The notes under the pieces were generated by a model, which was not told the DNA's origin, searched no databases, and worked only from the letters and a program-made list of their open reading frames with translations. Below, in pieces: positions 16,508 through 32,416 of a stretch of DNA of 32,692 bases. Origin of the DNA: Deltaproteobacteria bacterium (GTDB taxonomy: Bacteria > Desulfobacterota > Desulfarculia > Adiutricales > JAFDHD01). A program made the translations under genes and the position numbers. The stretch is from assembly GCA_019308995.1 (NCBI GenBank), contig JAFDHD010000025.1, positions 1-32,692 of the forward strand, given 5' to 3'. Position 1 is the first letter of the stretch. Every line of letters starts with the position of its first letter.

Positions 16508-17332
16508 TTGGCCAGGATTAAAGAAAAAACCTTTCGCCGGATCGTAAATATTGTCTATCGGGAATCTGGCATTGTTCTCCAAACAAAACGAGAGCTTGTT
16601 GAGGCCCGTATTGCCGGTCTCTGCCGAAAAAAAGGGTATGAAAGCCCGGAAGTGTTTCTGGAATACCTGGAAAAAGACATCACTGGTTCTGCTATGGTCG
16701 AGCTACTGGACAAGATCAGTACGAATGTAACCTATTTTTTTCGAAAAAAAGCCCATTTTGAATTTCTGGTAAAGGTGATAATGCCCGATTTGATGACCAG
16801 AAAAAAGTCAGAAGGCTCAAACAGGGTCCGGTTTTGGAGCGCGGCCTGTTCCAGCGGGGAAGAACCCTAGAGCCTGGCGATGGCCACGCATGAATACTGG
16901 GGAAATGGTGATGGATGGGACTTTAAAATTCTCGCCACTGACATCTCGACCGAGGTCTTAAAAAAGGCCCGGCAGGGCGTATATTCACGCCAGGAAGTTC
17001 TTAAGGCGCCCCCTCACCTTGTCCAGAGCTATTTTTCATGGACCGGTGATCGTCACAACCCTCTCTATGCAGTTCATAACGAGATCAAGCAGATGGTCGT
17101 TTTCAGAAGATTAAACCTGCTTGAGCAAACCTATCCTTTTACCGGCCTGTTTGACCTGATCATGTGCCGCAATGTGATGATCTATTTTGACCAGGAGACA
17201 AAGGAAGCCATACTAAAGCGGTTTTATCGTTGTATGCACAAAGGCGCCAGTTTGTTTACCGGCCACTCTGAATCTCTGTCTGGATACGAGCATTACTTCA
17301 AGCGAGTCAAGGCGGCTGTTTATAGAAAATAG
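16508..17332 (+). pseudogene. cheR: CheR-type protein-glutamate methyltransferase interrupted by an in-frame amber codon
   Basis: One frame of 274 codons before the terminal TAG encodes a whole CheR: N-terminal helical domain (1-85), then the SAM-dependent methyltransferase with RFWSAACSSGEEP, ILATDISTEVLKKAR, FDLIMCRNVMIYFD and SLFTGHSESL. CheR methylates chemoreceptor glutamates. At codon 121 (16868-16870) a TAG stands where the family has the tyrosine of GEEPYSLAM, in the SAM-binding motif. Nothing else is damaged and no frameshift is present, so a single base change from TAT or TAC is the likely cause. The product would be a 120-residue N-terminal fragment unless the stop is suppressed. 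Start TTG 16508 has AGGA eight to nine bases upstream. No other chemotaxis gene except a distant cheY at 20.3 kb is in the window. Sequencing error is the main alternative. Confidence 0.85.
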
Positions 17333-23302: not shown

Positions 23303-23855
23303 CCGAATATAGACGAGATGAAATCTTCACCCCTCGATGTTTCCAATATAGTATTTTAGGATAACTTTTTGAAATCCCAATAAGTTTACTATACCAAAAG
23401 TATGTATAGATATGACTCGATGGACCTCCGGTTCTGACGCATGCACGTATGTTTTACCTGAGGACCCTATATCATAGGCACAAGATGTGGAAGCGGTCAA
23501 ATTAAAGATCAGGCAATTTCGACCTCACTGTAGAGCTGTTTTTCCTGGGAGTTCGTTGAACTTGGCTTATTTATTAAAATTGCCTTTTGTGGCCAGTTGG
23601 AAAGCATCTCGAATCATTTCATTTTTTCACTTTCGCCGCGTCAAGCCTTATGGTATTCTGAACTCATCCCTCGCTTGAAAAGTAAGTTGTGGATACCCGG
23701 AGCATCTCACTGGCTGGTTAGTGAAGATCCTGAACTATTCAACAGAGTGATTCGTGATTTTATAAACAGATAATTGTACAAATTTCTCATAGTCATGTGA
23801 CGTGTAGATGCTATGATACTTTAATCTAAGCTTGAAAAAAAGGAAATCGAAGATA
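23303..23855. other. Degraded intergenic region
   Basis: A 553-bp stretch without an intact gene. It holds a repeat-like GCATGCACGTATG element (about 23431-23456) and the 3' remnant of an alpha/beta hydrolase (23633-23773). The ribosome-binding sequence of the thiamine-diphosphate enzyme ends it. A weak TATGAT at 23812-23817 has no matching -35. Confidence 0.55.
23633..23773 (+). pseudogene. C-terminal remnant of an alpha/beta-fold hydrolase
   Basis: This frame reads SPRQALWYSELIPRLKSK and then GASHWLVSEDPELFNRV to a stop at TAA 23771-23773. The order of a Y-x-E-L-I-P segment, then PGASHW (the catalytic-histidine loop), then EDPE-x-FN-x-x-x-x-DF is that of the C-terminus of many alpha/beta hydrolases. 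No nucleophile elbow or oxyanion region can be found upstream: the frame closes at a TAG near 23530 and other frames show nothing similar. It is therefore read as the tail of a deleted or decayed gene. The original substrate is unknown. Confidence 0.6.
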
Positions 23856-25652
23856 ATGAAAAAAATTATAGATCAAATCAGCCGAAGAAGGTTTCTGGGT
23901 CTTGTTAGCGGCGCTACGGCTTTTTTTTCAGCCGGAGGGTTGTTGACGCTTCCACGACCAAACTCCTCAAAATCAGGTATGGCCTACGCCGCTTCATTCC
24001 CCGAATATGATATTGCCGACCTGAAATCGGATACCCCGCATGGTGGCCAGCTGGTGGCCCACGCACTAAAGAGGGAGGGCGTAAAGTACCTTTTCGGCCT
24101 CTGCGGAGGACATATCAACCCCATCTTTGACGGGTGCCTGGATGAGGGAATCAAAGTTATTGGAACGCGTCACGAACAGGCCGCAGCACATATGGCTGAA
24201 GCATGGTCCCTGGTTACCGGTGAGATGGGGGTTTGCGCTGTCACGGCCGGACCGGGCCTTACCGATGCCCTTACCGGCGTGGCCAACGCCTATGAAAACC
24301 GAGTTCCCATGCTGATTCTGGGCGGACATAGTGATCTGAAGGACAATGACATCGGGTCTTTACAGGATATCAATCAGATAAATCTTTACGAATCAATTAC
24401 CAAGTGGGCACGCGTCTGTCATAAAACCGACCGGATCCCGGAATATATCGCCACAGCCTACCGGCACGCCCTGAGTGGAAGGCCCGGACCGGTCTACCTG
24501 GAACTGCCCCAGGATATTCTTAAAGCGAAAGTAAGCAAATCCAGCGTGAAATTCCCCAAGAACTACCGGACTCTTGAAAAACCGAGCGGCAGTTCCCGTG
24601 CCCTCCAGGCGGCCGCGGATATCATTGAGCAATCGAAGCGTCCTTTGATAATTGCTGGAACCGGCTGCCGATTTTCAAAGGCAGGTGATGCCATAGCCGC
24701 TTTTGCCGAACACAGGGGAATCCCAGTCATCACACGAGAAGGCGGGCGCGGCATTATACCGGATTCACATCCTCTTTCCCTTGGCCCCTCCTGCGGAATA
24801 TGGGGCCCCATAGGAATAGCCGATACCATAATTCTTCTCGGTTCACGGCTGAATTTTCAGCTTGGCTATGGGAAATATTTCTCAAAATCCGCCAAGATCA
24901 TACAAGTGGATACCGATTCAACAAATATAGGCTTCAATCGGGGTGCTGATGTTGGGATCATTGGCGATATCAAACAGGTCCTGGAGGACCTGAAAAGAAT
25001 AATACCGAACAATCCGGATCGTCAATGGGCCAGGCGATCAAAAACAAGAGTGAAGGCGACGGAAAAATGGATGCATGGCCGCACCCGGTTTGGAGGAACA
25101 CCGATCCATCCCAAGATACTGGCCGAAGGAGTTCGTGACGTGGCCGGTAGTGAAGCCTCGTATGTCGTGGATGGCGGATGGGTAGGCATGTGGGGCGGTG
25201 AAACCCTGCCCGCGGAGCGGCCGGGCGAATGTATTGGTGTTCAAACAGGACCGATGGGATGCCTGGGGGTTGGCGTACCGTATGCGCTGGCCATGAAGAT
25301 GGTTCATCCAGACCGCCCGGTGATCCTGTTTACCGGTGACGGCTCCTTTGGCTTTACGGCCGTCGAGATAGACACGGCCGTCCGTTATAATATCCCCATC
25401 GTATGCGTCGTAGCAAACGATCAGGCCTGGGGAATGATTAAGAGCGCTCAGGCTTATCATTATGGTCCAAATCGAATTGTCGGTACGGAATTGGGGCTTG
25501 TACGTTATGATAAATGGGTTGAAAGTTTTGGCGGCCATGGCGAATTTGTAGAAAATCCAAGCGAGATCAAACCAGCTATTGAAAGGGCCATAAAGTCGGG
25601 TAAACCGGCTTGTGTTAACGTCCTTGTAAGAACAGCCCCTCACAGAATATGA
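23856..25652 (+). CDS. Thiamine-diphosphate enzyme (acetolactate synthase-like) with Tat signal
   Basis: A 598-residue protein. The N-terminus has a twin-arginine signal, SRRRFLGLVSGATAFFSAGG (9-28), ending near AYA-A at about 45. The rest is a complete ThDP enzyme of the acetolactate synthase/2-hydroxyacyl-CoA lyase superfamily: catalytic glutamate in GTRHEQAAAHMAEAW (E107), TAGPGLTDALTGVANAY, a central domain with IIAGTGCRFSKAG, and a ThDP-Mg motif GDGSFGFTAVEIDTAV (494 on) ending in AND rather than the usual NN. It would make or break C-C bonds next to a carbonyl. Cytoplasmic homologues lack a signal; export is unusual and unproven. ATG 23856 is chosen because AAAGGAAA lies nine bases upstream; an in-frame TTG at 23832 is less likely. 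No FAD or regulatory-subunit gene is adjacent. Confidence 0.88.
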   Translation: MKKIIDQISRRRFLGLVSGATAFFSAGGLLTLPRPNSSKSGMAYAASFPEYDIADLKSDTPHGGQLVAHALKREGVKYLFGLCGGHINPIFDGCLDEGIKVIGTRHEQAAAHMAEAWSLVTGEMGVCAVTAGPGLTDALTGVANAYENRVPMLILGGHSDLKDNDIGSLQDINQINLYESITKWARVCHKTDRIPEYIATAYRHALSGRPGPVYLELPQDILKAKVSKSSVKFPKNYRTLEKPSGSSRALQAAADIIEQSKRPLIIAGTGCRFSKAGDAIAAFAEHRGIPVITREGGRGIIPDSHPLSLGPSCGIWGPIGIADTIILLGSRLNFQLGYGKYFSKSAKIIQVDTDSTNIGFNRGADVGIIGDIKQVLEDLKRIIPNNPDRQWARRSKTRVKATEKWMHGRTRFGGTPIHPKILAEGVRDVAGSEASYVVDGGWVGMWGGETLPAERPGECIGVQTGPMGCLGVGVPYALAMKMVHPDRPVILFTGDGSFGFTAVEIDTAVRYNIPIVCVVANDQAWGMIKSAQAYHYGPNRIVGTELGLVRYDKWVESFGGHGEFVENPSEIKPAIERAIKSGKPACVNVLVRTAPHRI

Positions 25653-25942
25653 TGGCCACCGGGCCTGGTTTGAATCATTCACTGACTTCATTTTAGTCTA
25701 AGGCGGGATGGCGGTTCCTTGCATCCTTGAACTTGAAGTTTCTTTCCCGAAATATTCAACATAAAATAGTTATATATTAATCGGCTATAACAATTTGAAA
25801 TTTAAAAAGTTTCCTATATCGACGGTAGTATTTAACGGGGGGCGACAGAGCCCGACTTTTTTCGGATGCACGTATTGCTTACAATTTAGCTGGCGTTGTG
25901 AGATACAAAATACATCCTCAAAGCGCTAGGAGGAATAAGCTG
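25653..25942. other. Intergenic region upstream of the pRiA4b-like gene
   Basis: No gene is seen in these 290 bases. GGATGCACGTATT at about 25864-25876 resembles elements at 23437 and 26644. The ribosome-binding sequence TAGGAGGA at 25927-25934 serves the next gene. Confidence 0.45.
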
Positions 25943-26572
25943 ATGGAGACTGATAATTCTCAAGTATATCAATTCAAGGTGACTTTGAACGGTATTCGTC
26001 CACCAATCTGGCGGAGAATTCAGGTTCCAGCCGAATATACGTTTTGGGACCTTCACGTTGCTATTCAGGATGCGATGGGATGGTTTGATAGTCATTTGCA
26101 CGATTTCAAGATAACTAATCTCTCCACCGGACACTATGAAAAATTCGGAATCCCGATTGAGGACGATATAGATTTTGGAGAGGAACCTCCAACCAAACCA
26201 GGTTGGGAGCACTATATTGCCGATTATTTTTCTCTGGAAAATTCAAAAGCAATTTACGAATACGACTTTGGTGATGGTTGGGAGCACACTGTTCTATTAG
26301 AAAAAATCATTTCGAGGGATGAAAAAAAAATATACCCCATATGCTTGGACGGAAAACGAGCCTGTCCACCCGAGGACTGCGGAGGCGTCTGGGGATACGA
26401 AAATCTTCTTGAAATTATTGCCGATCCAAATCATGAAGATTATGACACATGGATAGAATGGCTCGGTGAAGATTTCGACCCGGAATTCTTTGATGCAAAA
26501 TTGGTCGAATTTGATGATCCTACCGAAAGATGGAAATTTGCCTTTGAAGAATCAGACGAGTTGTTACATTGA
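25943..26572 (+). CDS. Plasmid pRiA4b ORF-3-like protein
   Basis: A 209-residue acidic protein of the pRiA4b ORF-3 family. The opening VYQFKVTLNGIRPPIWRRIQ, the conserved FWDLHVAIQDAMGWFDSHLH, the central YEYDFGDGWEHTVLLEKI and the CPPEDCGGVWGYENLLE segment are all present in order. The family is common on plasmids, in insertion-element contexts and in chromosomes; its molecular function is not established. ATG 25943 is fixed by TAGGAGGA; the frame is open to 25898 without a further signal. It stands alone, surrounded by repeat-bearing intergenic sequence. Confidence 0.92.
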   Translation: METDNSQVYQFKVTLNGIRPPIWRRIQVPAEYTFWDLHVAIQDAMGWFDSHLHDFKITNLSTGHYEKFGIPIEDDIDFGEEPPTKPGWEHYIADYFSLENSKAIYEYDFGDGWEHTVLLEKIISRDEKKIYPICLDGKRACPPEDCGGVWGYENLLEIIADPNHEDYDTWIEWLGEDFDPEFFDAKLVEFDDPTERWKFAFEESDELLH

Positions 26573-27184: not shown

Positions 27185-28447
27185 ATGGATCGTCAGATAA
27201 AGAAAAAATGGTTTGGCCCGAAACAAATTTCATGGCTTGTATTTGTCGTGATCATCGCTATATTCGCAGTTTATTATTTTTTCTATCAGGATACCAGTTC
27301 GAAACTGAACGTGCGTACTGAAAAGATTATTATTTCAACTATTACGGAGGAACCATTTCAAGAGTTCATCCCTGTGCTTGGAAAGGTCATGCCGGTCACA
27401 ACAGTTTTTCTGGACGCCATTGAAGGAGGCCGGGTTGAAAAAAAGTTTGTTGAGGCGGGCGCCTGGGTCAAGGAAGGGGACAAGATCCTTCACTTGTCGA
27501 ACACCAACCTGGTTATCAATATTATGCAGCGGGAAGCGGAATATGTCACCCAGAGTGATAATCTGCAAAAGTCCCGCCTCTCCATGGAGCAGAAAAAGCT
27601 CGCTCACATAACCCTGATGGCTGAGCTGGATTATCAACTGCAAACAAAAATGCGTGATTACGAGCAGAGCGAAGCGCTTTTTCAAAAGAAAGTAATTTCG
27701 AGGAAGAAATACGCCGACGACAAGGAAATCTACGAGTATTTAATTAGGAAAAAGAGACTGGCTGAAGAGAATTTCACGCAGGAGATTAATTTCCGGCAAG
27801 TACAGATCGAACAATTTGAGGCTTCGCTGAAAAGAATGAGCGCGAACCTGGAACTAATAAAGGAAAAACTGGAATCGTTGACCATCAGGGCCCCCATCAG
27901 CGGGCAGTTGACAGTACTTAATGCGGAGATTGGAGAATCCAAGGCCCTGGGCCAACGTTTAGGCCAGATTAATGTCATGGATGACCTTAAAATTATTACC
28001 GGGATTGATGAACACTATATCGCACGGGTAAAAGAGGGAAATATAGGGACCTTTGATTTAGAAGGAAGCACCCATGAAGTCACCCATGAAGTCAACATCG
28101 TTAAAATCCTGCCGGATGTCCGCGAAGGGCAGTTTGTTGTTGAGCTGAAGTTCATCAAAAATCCGCTGTCAGAAATCAGGATCGGGCAGACTTTGCATAT
28201 TAAACTGACTTTGGGGGAACTAACCAAAGTGATCACAGTTCCCAGGGGTGGGTTTTACCAAAGCACCGCCGGTCAGTGGATATACGTATTGGACAGCACC
28301 GGGAGTTTTGCCACAAAAAGGAGTATCCGGCTGGGCCGTAAAAACGCAGATGTCTTTGAGGTATTGGAAGGACTGAACCCCAGGGAGAAAGTGATTACCT
28401 CAAATTACGATAACTTTGAAGATATGGATAAATTGATCCTTAAGTAA
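27185..28447 (+). CDS. HlyD/MacA-type periplasmic adaptor subunit
   Basis: A 420-residue membrane-fusion protein. One transmembrane anchor lies at about 17-36. A biotinyl-lipoyl-like strand follows (FLDAIEGGRVEKKFVEAGAW with VKEGDKIL), then a long charged helical hairpin (about 110-230, partly coiled coil) with the return lipoyl strand LTIRAPISGQLTVLNAEIGE, and a beta-barrel region with VPRGGFYQSTAGQWIYVLD. It should link the inner-membrane ABC exporter encoded next to an outer-membrane partner, which is not in the window. A perfect 12-bp tandem duplication (28070-28093) duplicates THEV at 296-303 in the beta-barrel. ATG 27185 lacks a strong ribosome-binding site. Confidence 0.87.
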   Translation: MDRQIKKKWFGPKQISWLVFVVIIAIFAVYYFFYQDTSSKLNVRTEKIIISTITEEPFQEFIPVLGKVMPVTTVFLDAIEGGRVEKKFVEAGAWVKEGDKILHLSNTNLVINIMQREAEYVTQSDNLQKSRLSMEQKKLAHITLMAELDYQLQTKMRDYEQSEALFQKKVISRKKYADDKEIYEYLIRKKRLAEENFTQEINFRQVQIEQFEASLKRMSANLELIKEKLESLTIRAPISGQLTVLNAEIGESKALGQRLGQINVMDDLKIITGIDEHYIARVKEGNIGTFDLEGSTHEVTHEVNIVKILPDVREGQFVVELKFIKNPLSEIRIGQTLHIKLTLGELTKVITVPRGGFYQSTAGQWIYVLDSTGSFATKRSIRLGRKNADVFEVLEGLNPREKVITSNYDNFEDMDKLILK

Positions 28448-28456
28448 GGAGCGCCG

Positions 28457-29134
28457 ATGATTAGAACGGAAAACCTTGTTAAAATTTACAGGACGGAAGA
28501 GGTTGAGACAACAGCCCTGAACAACCTTAGCTTAGAAATTAATGAAGGTGAGTTCGTTTCCATTATCGGGCCATCAGGCTGCGGTAAATCAACCCTTTTA
28601 AACGTACTGGGTCTGCTTGACAGCCTCAATGAAGGCAAATATTTTTTTATGGATCATGAGGTCTCGAAATATTCTGAAAGAAAGCGAACCAATTTGAGAA
28701 AAGCCAACATAGGCTTTGTCTTTCAGAGCTTTAACCTGATTGATGAGTTAACGGTCTTTGAGAATGTTGAGCTCCCCCTCCTTTACCTGAGCGTATCCTC
28801 ATCGGAGCGAAAGAAACGGGTAAAAGATGTGCTGGAGCAGACCGGTATATCCCATCGGATGAATCATTACCCACAATTGCTCTCTGGCGGTCAGCAGCAG
28901 CGTGTTGCGGTGGCTAGGGCTGTAGTAGCCAAACCCAAGGTTATCCTGGCGGACGAGCCCACTGGTAATCTGGATTCCAAACATGGTGGTGAAGTAATGG
29001 ATCTCTTAGCCGAACTGCACAAAGAAGGCACCACCGTTGTTATAGTTACTCATTCACCCGATTATGCCCAACGTGCCCAGCGTATTATCCAGCTTTTGGA
29101 TGGTGATGTGGTAACAGGAGAGGTGGCTGGTTAA
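28457..29134 (+). CDS. ABC exporter ATPase, MacB/LolD type
   Basis: A 225-residue ATPase of the LolD/MacB group. Walker A is GPSGCGKST, the Q-loop is in VFQSFNLIDELTV, the signature is LSGGQQQRVAVARAV, Walker B is VILADEPTGNLD and the switch histidine is in IVTHSPDYA. These ATPases work with FtsX-fold permeases as mechanotransmission machines, not as classic transporters. ATG 28457 lies nine bases after the adaptor stop with AAGGAG before it. Intact itself, it has only the interrupted permease gene as its evident partner. Confidence 0.93.
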   Translation: MIRTENLVKIYRTEEVETTALNNLSLEINEGEFVSIIGPSGCGKSTLLNVLGLLDSLNEGKYFFMDHEVSKYSERKRTNLRKANIGFVFQSFNLIDELTVFENVELPLLYLSVSSSERKKRVKDVLEQTGISHRMNHYPQLLSGGQQQRVAVARAVVAKPKVILADEPTGNLDSKHGGEVMDLLAELHKEGTTVVIVTHSPDYAQRAQRIIQLLDGDVVTGEVAG

Positions 29135-29200: not shown

Positions 29201-31573
29201 GTGTTTTTAAATTATCTAAAAATCGCCTACAGGAATCTTTTTAAGTATAAGGCCTTCTCGCTGATCAACATCTCCGGGCTGGCCATCGGCATGACCTGCT
29301 GTTTCCTGATCCTGGTGTGGGTGATGGATGAATTGAGCTTTGACCGATTCCATAAAAATGCTGACAACCTGTATCGGGCCGTGGTGAGGGTAAAGAACGA
29401 CAACGGCGTTACCACCTCGATATGGGGTCCGGCTGCTTTAGGACCCGGCTTAAAACGAGAAATGCCGGAAGTTGTTGATTTTGCACGGTACGTCCCGGCT
29501 CCGCAGATAACCTTGCAGCATGAGGACGCCACTTTTAACGAACAAGTCGTATGGGTTGATCCGAGCTTTTTTAAGATGTTTACCTTCCCCGCCATAGCCG
29601 GGGATTTGGAAACAGCCTTCGAAGAACCCCTGGCTCTAGTCATCACCCAGAAAATGGCCAAAAAATATTTTGGCACCGATAAGGATGTAATCAACAAAGT
29701 CCTCAAAATGAGCAACAGGTACGATTATAAAGTCAAGGCGGTGCTCAAGGACATCCCGGCCACCTCCCATCTGAATTTCGATATTCTCGCGCCCTCTTCC
29801 AACCTGAAATACGTCGGATACAAGGATGACAATTGGATCTGGAACAATTGTATTACCTATGTCCAGCTTCAGAAAAACGTTCCTTACAAGAAATTCAACA
29901 AAAAGATCACTAACTACATTGAAAGCCATATGACCAAATTTACGTTTTCTGAAGAACTATTTTTGCAGCCTTTAACCCGAATTTATTTGTACTCGGATTT
30001 CAGTGGTGAAAGAAGCAGGCAGGGAAACATCACTCACGTCTATATTCTTTCAATTATTGCTGTCTTTATCCTTTTGATCGCCTGTATCAACTTCATGAAT
30101 CTTTCCACGGCCCGATCCATGAACCGCGTCACCGAAATCGGTATCAGAAAAGTAGTGGGAGCGCACCGGACCCATCTGATAGCCCAATTTTACGGGGAAT
30201 CGATCTTTCTTTCCGTGGTCGCCCTGGTTATCGCTCTGGGCCTGTCCGAGCTGCTGCTGCCTTCGTTCAACGCTATGGCTGGGAAACAACTGTCACATGA
30301 TCTGACCGGCAACTGGCACGTCATTCTGGGTATCGGCTTAATCACAGTCTTTACCGGCATCATCGCCGGAAGTTACCCTGCCTTTTACTTGTCCGCGTTT
30401 AAGCCAGCCAGGATTTTGCAAGGCTCTTCCAAGAAAGCCTCTAAAAGCGCTGTTCTGCGTAAAACTTTAGTAATTCTATAATTTGCCCTTTCGGTAATAC
30501 TGATTATCAGTACGGCAATTGTTTTTTACCAACTGCAATACATAAAAAATAAAGACCTGGGATATGACAAAGAGAATCTGCTGGTAATCCCCAACAGGAC
30601 AGGCCAACATATACGCAACAGACATAAAACGTTCAGGTATGAGTTGACGAAAAACCCGAAGGTCCTTGGGGCCACCGTTACTTCCCAAAATCCGACCAAC
30701 ATGGAATATGCCACAATCATTTTCAATTGGAGAGGGAAAAATCCAGAGGACCAGATTCTGATTCACGCTAACAGTGTAACCGTTGATTATGTCGACACAC
30801 TGAAGCTACAGGTCAAGGAAGGAAGAGGGTTTTCCGATAAAATCACCTCTGATCGAAGAGGAGCGATCCTGCTGAATGAAGAGGCGGTCAAGGTGATGGG
30901 ATTTACCAACCCGTTGGAGGAAACTGTTACCGTGGGAAAAACCAAATTAAGGGTGATCGGCGTACTAAAAAAATTTCATTTTTAGCCCATACATAAAAAA
31001 ATTGAGCCGATGATCATCTCTACGGGAAGGATCAGGGGTGGTTATACTATAGTCAGACTTCATCCAGATCAAATGGCTGAAACCATCGGATTTGTCAAGC
31101 AAACCTGGACTAAGTTTTTTCCGACCATTCCCTTTAACTATCACTTCCTTGATGAGGATTATGACAATCTGTACCGGGCCGAAGAACGGATGGGGACGCT
31201 CCTTAATTACTTTTCGATACTCGCCGTATTTATCGCCTGTTTGGGACTATTCGGGCTGGCCTCCTTCACCACTGAACAGAGGACCAAGGAAATCGGAATC
31301 CGTAAGGTTTTAGGGGCTTCCACACCCGGGATTATCATGCTCCTGGGTAAGGATTTCGCTAAGCTGGTTCTGATTGCCAATATCATCGCATGGCCGATTG
31401 CCTATTACGTCATGACAAATTGGCTCCAGGATTTTGCTTACCGGATTAATATCAATTGGCTAATTTTTCTGCTAACCGGCGTCCTATCCGTATTCATTGC
31501 CCTAGTTACGGTTAGTTTCCAGGCTACCAAAGCGGCTATGGCCAATCCGGTCAAATCGCTCCGATATGAATAA
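29201..31573 (+). pseudogene. FtsX/MacB-type ABC permease interrupted by two in-frame stop codons
   Basis: A single frame of 790 codons runs from GTG 29201 (AAGAGGAC upstream) to TAA 31571-31573. It encodes the full double-FtsX permease common in Bacteroidota-type exporters: IAYRNLFKYKAFSLINISG, GLAIGM, periplasmic domain, IGIRKVVGAHR before the first FtsX segment pair, and EIGIRKVLGAS in the C-terminal FtsX domain. Codon 427 is TAA (30479-30481) in RKTLVIL*FALSVIL, and codon 595 is TAG (30983-30985) in KKFHF*PIHKKIEPM. By family pattern both sites normally hold glutamine (FQFALS; FQSLHEKIEP), so each fits one C-to-T change. No frameshift occurs. Translation would make only the first half (426 residues, four transmembrane segments). 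The adaptor and ATPase genes are intact. Confidence 0.88.
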
Positions 31574-31923: not shown

Positions 31924-32416
31924 ATGAGGAGAGTAAAGAGAGAGAATACCAGGGTTTTTCATTTTCTAGGTCTGGCAGCCATTATCGCTTTGGGATTGTT
32001 TGTAATCGCTGCCCCATGCATTGCTGCTGATGATGATTGTAAGGGCGCTGTGGTTGTGGAACCAGATTGGGAGAGATCCTACAAGGCCGGTTATACGGAC
32101 AGCAACGGACATTTCAATCAGCGTATCCAAGCTTGAAAAAAATCCGGACCTCAGCCAGGCAGCCGTTGGATACACGGAGGCCTTGAAGAAAATCGGCAAT
32201 GGCAAGGCTGAACTCAAGAAAGAAACCAGGACCAAGCTGCCGGACGGAACCCCGGCGGTGGAGTTTGTCATCACATGGGTCACCAAGGCCAACGTAGCGT
32301 TGACCACCCGGGCCTTGACCGTGTACAATGAAGGCTATTCCATTTCTATGGGCACGCATACCTGGGCCGGGAATTCGCCGGATAAAAAGATCTTTTACAC
32401 CATTAAATTCAATTGA
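31924..32416 (+). pseudogene. Broken gene for a secreted protein
   Basis: The first frame (31924-32136) starts with a clear Sec signal peptide (RVFHFLGLAAIIALGLFVIA, cleavage near CIAA-DDD) and continues to WERSYKAGYTDSNG before losing sense. From about 32097 the +1 frame takes over as TDISISVSKLEKNPDLSQAA and runs to TAA 32414-32416 with a coherent soluble domain (LPDGTPAVEFVITWVTKAN, SISMGTHTWAGN). Either one frameshift separates two parts of one gene, or a deletion has joined two genes: the front resembles the start of a repeat-propeller-type secreted protein, the back an unrelated small lipoprotein-like domain. ACGGAC occurs twice at the junction (32096-32101, 32106-32111). The product as it stands would be a 70-residue peptide. 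Function unknown. Confidence 0.65.

Follow-up and report, generated by a model that had tools for sequence, protein, structure and literature searches.

Results

Gene Content and Structure of the Exporter Locus

The window analyzed here is the whole of contig JAFDHD010000025.1 (32,692 bases), one of 228 contigs of a metagenome-type assembly, and it carries consecutive same-strand genes for a HlyD-family adaptor, an ABC transporter ATPase and a double MacB/FtsX-type permease (Table 1). As judged from domain content and gene order, the permease gene is the third gene of a predicted HlyD-ATPase-permease operon specifying a putative MacAB-like exporter, and it encodes two fused half-permeases. Its reading frame runs from a GTG start at 29201 to a terminal TAA at 31571–31573 and requires no indel. 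Thus, the initial annotation of this frame (790 codons, no indel, TAA at codon 427 and TAG at codon 595) is borne out in every respect by the assembled sequence.

Table 1. Coordinates of the exporter genes, the segments and stops of the permease frame, and the second interrupted gene of the window.
Feature	Position	Strand	Details
CheR methyltransferase gene	16508..17332	+	In-frame TAG at 16868-16870, invariant Tyr column
HlyD-family adaptor (membrane fusion protein)	27185..28447	+	Intact, 420 aa; Pfam HlyD_3 8.2e-11, HlyD_D23 1.4e-7
ABC transporter ATPase	28457..29134	+	Intact, 225 aa; Pfam ABC_tran 6.1e-35
Double MacB/FtsX-type permease gene	29201..31573	+	790 codons, two in-frame stops
First open segment	29201..30481	+	426 aa; MacB_PCD + FtsX; one complete half-permease and the start of hydrophobic segment 5
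Stop 1, TAA, codon 427	30479..30481	+	Homologue column invariant Gln, 88/88
Second segment	30482..30985	+	167 codons; second MacB_PCD domain, Pfam 4.1e-9
Stop 2, TAG, codon 595	30983..30985	+	Variable column; Gln in 11/88 homologues
Third segment	30986..31573	+	195 codons; second FtsX domain, Pfam 6.7e-10

Along the permease frame the Pfam domains follow the order MacB_PCD, FtsX, MacB_PCD, FtsX, and the two halves are mutually related (26% identity over 144 residues, E 3e-11). A hydropathy scan gave four membrane segments per half (4+4), those of the first half lying at residues 18–47, 274–306, 325–360 and 370–394, with stop 1 located inside the fifth segment (415–448), just past the first four-helix unit. 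In tblastn comparisons the frame aligns end to end with its homologues (almost full length for 87 of 88), which, together with the ordered Pfam domains, makes a chance origin of the frame impossible. As expected of a double MacB/FtsX-type (type VII) ABC permease, the domains alternate and an ATPase gene is linked, along with the adaptor gene that some operons of this class carry; the uninterrupted frame characteristic of this class is, however, absent. Across the 88 homologous loci, many of them short, an ATPase relative on the same strand was present in 12 and a HlyD relative in 7, at distances of up to ~4 kb.

Homologue Columns at the Two Stops and Preservation of the Gene

The homologue set (n = 88) combined the best 80 of at least 591 related stretches from a contig scan with eight full or partial relatives from a genome search, and none of the 88 contained a stop within its best tblastn segment. 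The permease thus has in-frame stops where its homologues are open, as in a nonsense pseudogene. At codon 427 all 88 homologues have glutamine (CAG in 57, CAA in 31), in agreement with the initial annotation, which had placed both stops at glutamine sites. This placement failed at codon 595, where the column is variable (N 16, E 14, K 13, Q 11, R 11, S 6, T 4, F 3, and others) and CAG is found in just four of the 88; the 12 homologues that are one change away from TAG at this position carry CAG (4), GAG (5), AAG (2) or TAT (1). Since glutamine occupies only 11/88 positions of this variable column, the former residue at codon 595 is not readable. Accordingly, of the two C-to-T events suggested earlier, CAA to TAA is supported at codon 427, whereas CAG to TAG at codon 595 cannot be deduced.

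Preservation of the remaining gene was assessed against 87 aligned homologues of nearly full length, which gave 99 comparable columns conserved at 90% or more. The permease departs from three of these 99 columns, all before stop 1, and from 0/45 after it; its deviation rank is 34 of 88 (numbering from 0, the most deviant). Since the conserved sites are otherwise kept and the gene, its stops aside, resembles a functional one, the lesions are either young or not real. In simple lesion models, with an assumed indel rate of 5–20% of substitutions and two thirds of indels frameshifting, the probability that both lesions are nonsense changes was 0.03–0.29, and each further nonsense change corresponded to ~26–34 neutral substitutions. 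Under these models, a gene with two nonsense lesions and no indel is no rarity and requires nothing extraordinary.

Distribution and Origin of the Permease

A search of 41 genomes of relatives yielded a strong permease match only in the window's own genome, with weak domain matches elsewhere, and the first half of the permease found no match in a genome of the same genus (G001, 90% complete). In a sample of the phylum, matches at E 1e-20 or better were present in five of 297 genomes, its own included. This sparse distribution implies that the permease is dispensable in the group. Homologues are closer in other phyla (up to 45% identity among the best 80 of at least 591) than in its own phylum (at most 38%), and in the phylogenetic tree the permease groups, at a weak support of 0.65, with a sequence from Aminicenantes, and sequences from Gemmatimonadota and Acidobacteriota lie nearby. 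Taken together, these comparisons point to a likely lateral acquisition of the permease.

The contig itself belongs to the genus, as both flanks of the operon match DNA of the same-genus genome (88% identity at 23829–25656, 83% at 32196–32412). A foreign contig or misbinning is not favored, given these matches on both sides of the operon and a tRNA-Leu gene on the contig. Third-position GC of the operon genes (0.47–0.585) is on the low side, but within the range, for the 172 genes compared (2.5th percentile 0.45, median 0.61). Just upstream of the operon lies a plasmid pRiA4b ORF-3-like gene (25898–26572, plus strand) with a third-position GC of 0.39, possibly also acquired.

In-Frame Stops Elsewhere in the Contig and Genome

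A Pfam scan of ten other ORFs of the window revealed a CheR methyltransferase gene split over two same-frame ORFs. The column of its TAG holds tyrosine in all 29 relatives fetched (TAC in 25, TAT in 4), and the same-genus orthologue is open. Apart from its stop the gene is well preserved and shows no acceleration (branch length 0.22 vs. 0.32 for the same-genus orthologue), so that an old pseudogene is not supported. With the CheR stop at tyrosine and codon 595 in a variable column, a common C-to-T cause was rejected as a general pattern; the theme of cytosine deamination, raised in the initial annotation, found no support when other nonsense changes were checked, the CheR stop not being a C-to-T change.

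A further gene at 31924–32416 (plus strand), encoding a small secreted-protein-like product, appears to switch reading frame between its N- and C-terminal parts. A short direct repeat lies near 32095, and in the same-genus genome the C-terminal part alone is present, behind unrelated sequence. Hence the absence of other decay noted at the outset is true of the permease gene but not of the contig, in view of the CheR TAG and this apparent change of frame.

Other comparisons yielded few interruptions. Stops were found in 0/81 ABC_tran matches elsewhere and in 1/35 AMP-binding family matches, the latter a 58-position remnant with an in-frame TAG (G000:C12:14284-14454, plus strand). Checked against the same-genus genome, one of 12 window genes (CheR) and none of 14 genes of another stretch (L162) contained a stop; in the reverse direction, one of 15 window ORFs (the gene near 32200) met a stop in the same-genus genome, compared with 0/14 for L162. 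A search for abutting same-frame segments, assessed visually and with no recourse to homology, gave seven pairs in the window, three of them representing the stops discussed here, and 23 pairs in 12 stretches of 19.9 kb, none of which was clearly a broken gene. When split genes were sought across the genome by coding potential, codon bias proved too weak and the known stops were missed. Overall, the excess of in-frame stops in this contig is small and partly owed to the choice of the window.

Discussion

We consider the permease gene, part of an accessory ABC exporter, to be probably a nonsense pseudogene of recent origin. At the level of sequence comparisons, this reading is favored by the uninterrupted homologues, by the dispensability of the gene in its group and by the failure to detect any machinery reading UAA or UAG; the TAA at an invariant glutamine and the small number of departures from conserved columns (3/99) lend support to the recent inactivation initially proposed. 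Provided that the assembled bases are correct, we infer that selection on the permease ceased with whichever stop arose first, and that the other would have been added while the gene was still free of indels and of visible losses at conserved residues. Translation would then cease at codon 427, yielding one half-permease and a part of helix 5, and the exporter is probably dead even though the genes of its adaptor and ATPase are open. Accessory genes such as this permease would be easily lost; the fate of young pseudogenes in Salmonella is the subject of PMC2916853. Against this reading, both stops rest on a single assembly consensus, and there is a mild tension between the 26–34 neutral substitutions implied by a further nonsense change and the 0/45 changed columns after stop 1.

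The main rival explanation, which we regard as unlikely but which deserves serious weight, is that the gene is intact in the organism and that its stops reflect erroneous base calls in a metagenome contig of thin coverage or mixed strains. The metagenome-type, 228-contig assembly is compatible with such errors, and the CheR gene has the same appearance as the permease, i.e., an indel-free stop in an otherwise intact gene of the same contig, which counts against a pseudogene and also fits miscalls; moreover, the CheR stop requires a transversion from either tyrosine codon. According to PMC11017572, internal stops in assemblies often have a technical origin, linked to low coverage or quality. 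On the other hand, the permease gene would need two independent miscalls and CheR a third, all within 32.7 kb, while the rest, as sampled by the ABC_tran and AMP-binding matches and the 12 stretches, looks clean, and by our own estimate three miscalled stops would imply ~0.2–0.3% wrong bases in the contig.

If the stops are real, the locus is another case in which an exporter gene carried by few genomes was rapidly lost, with lesions young enough to leave the rest of the protein well conserved. If they are an artefact, the locus cautions that an in-frame stop in a metagenome contig says little about biology, the more so as the same contig has a second such gene. Neither the pseudogene nor the artefact reading touches the genetic code, the former amounting to ordinary gene decay.

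An improbable alternative is that the product ending at codon 427 may constitute a complete, self-pairing MacB-like half that still functions together with the adaptor and the ATPase, both intact. The position of stop 1 right after the first four-helix unit would suit such a half-size permease, and, as described in PMC5985334, MacB and FtsX work as homodimers of four-helix units, while fused double units also exist. The product would, however, end in a truncated fifth helix, and the part behind stop 1 is still conserved (0/45 columns changed), which argues against any long history without it. The variant in which one stop has just split the permease at its module boundary, so that the remaining MacB-like half may homodimerize alongside the intact adaptor and ATPase, appears likewise improbable.

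Separate production of the second half from its own start, suggested initially as split translation, is highly unlikely: an ATG at codon 604, eight codons past stop 2, could give a 187-residue FtsX domain, but no start follows stop 1 for 54 codons, the first (TTG, codon 482, 55 codons past stop 1) lies beyond the fifth helix, which would be missing, and no Shine-Dalgarno-like sequence was seen by eye before this TTG or the codon 604 ATG when the claim was checked.

Equally hard to credit is a full-length permease made by decoding of the stops (suppression, reassignment, pyrrolysine or regulated readthrough), in favor of which we counted the end-to-end conservation of the frame and the reassignment of UAA and UAG to glutamine in eukaryotic nuclear genomes, as reported in PMC8629427. 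The TAG of CheR occupies a tyrosine column and that of FtsX a mixed one, so that no single meaning of this codon fits. None of 40 tRNAs (150 of 190 first-look candidates scored with Rfam; anticodons by ARAGORN) would read UAA or UAG, in an assembly that may miss some tRNA genes; RF1 is intact and over the cut-off, and the genome has another release-factor gene besides; PylS profiles gave three weak matches, all short of the cut-off, which was also the outcome for most control genomes. The 172 non-overlapping ORFs of 200 aa or more (from the window and the 12 stretches of 19.9 kb) terminate in TAA (65), TGA (63) or TAG (44), all three stop codons being normally used. On the tRNA set, release factors, PylS result and terminator use, stop reassignment, a suppressor tRNA and pyrrolysine were rejected, and the earlier view that recoding is unlikely, TAA being a normal stop here, is upheld.

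Comparison with Known Systems

The interrupted permease resembles bacterial nonsense pseudogenes, in which premature stops occur where homologues are open, with no difference in kind. Its full-length counterparts in Bacteroidota, KSB1, Aminicenantes and other groups (among the best 80 of at least 591) share ~38–45% identity with the whole frame and differ from it in their lack of in-frame stops, with zero such stops among the 88 homologues used. The nearest solved structures by sequence are those of MacB (PDB 5gko, 5lil, 5nik), a macrolide exporter permease with which each half shares the MacB_PCD and FtsX domains and the locus shares an upstream HlyD adaptor and ATPase, while the two fused halves, the separate ATPase gene and the two stops in frame set the permease apart. 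YbbP and BceB are fused double permeases of the MacB (type VII) superfamily with two extra helices between the units, as presented in PMC5985334. In comparison with them, the encoded polypeptide likewise has two MacB-like units and, as in YbbP, both periplasmic domains, but it differs in the 4+4 segments of the hydropathy scan, in the presence of an adaptor gene and in its interrupted frame.
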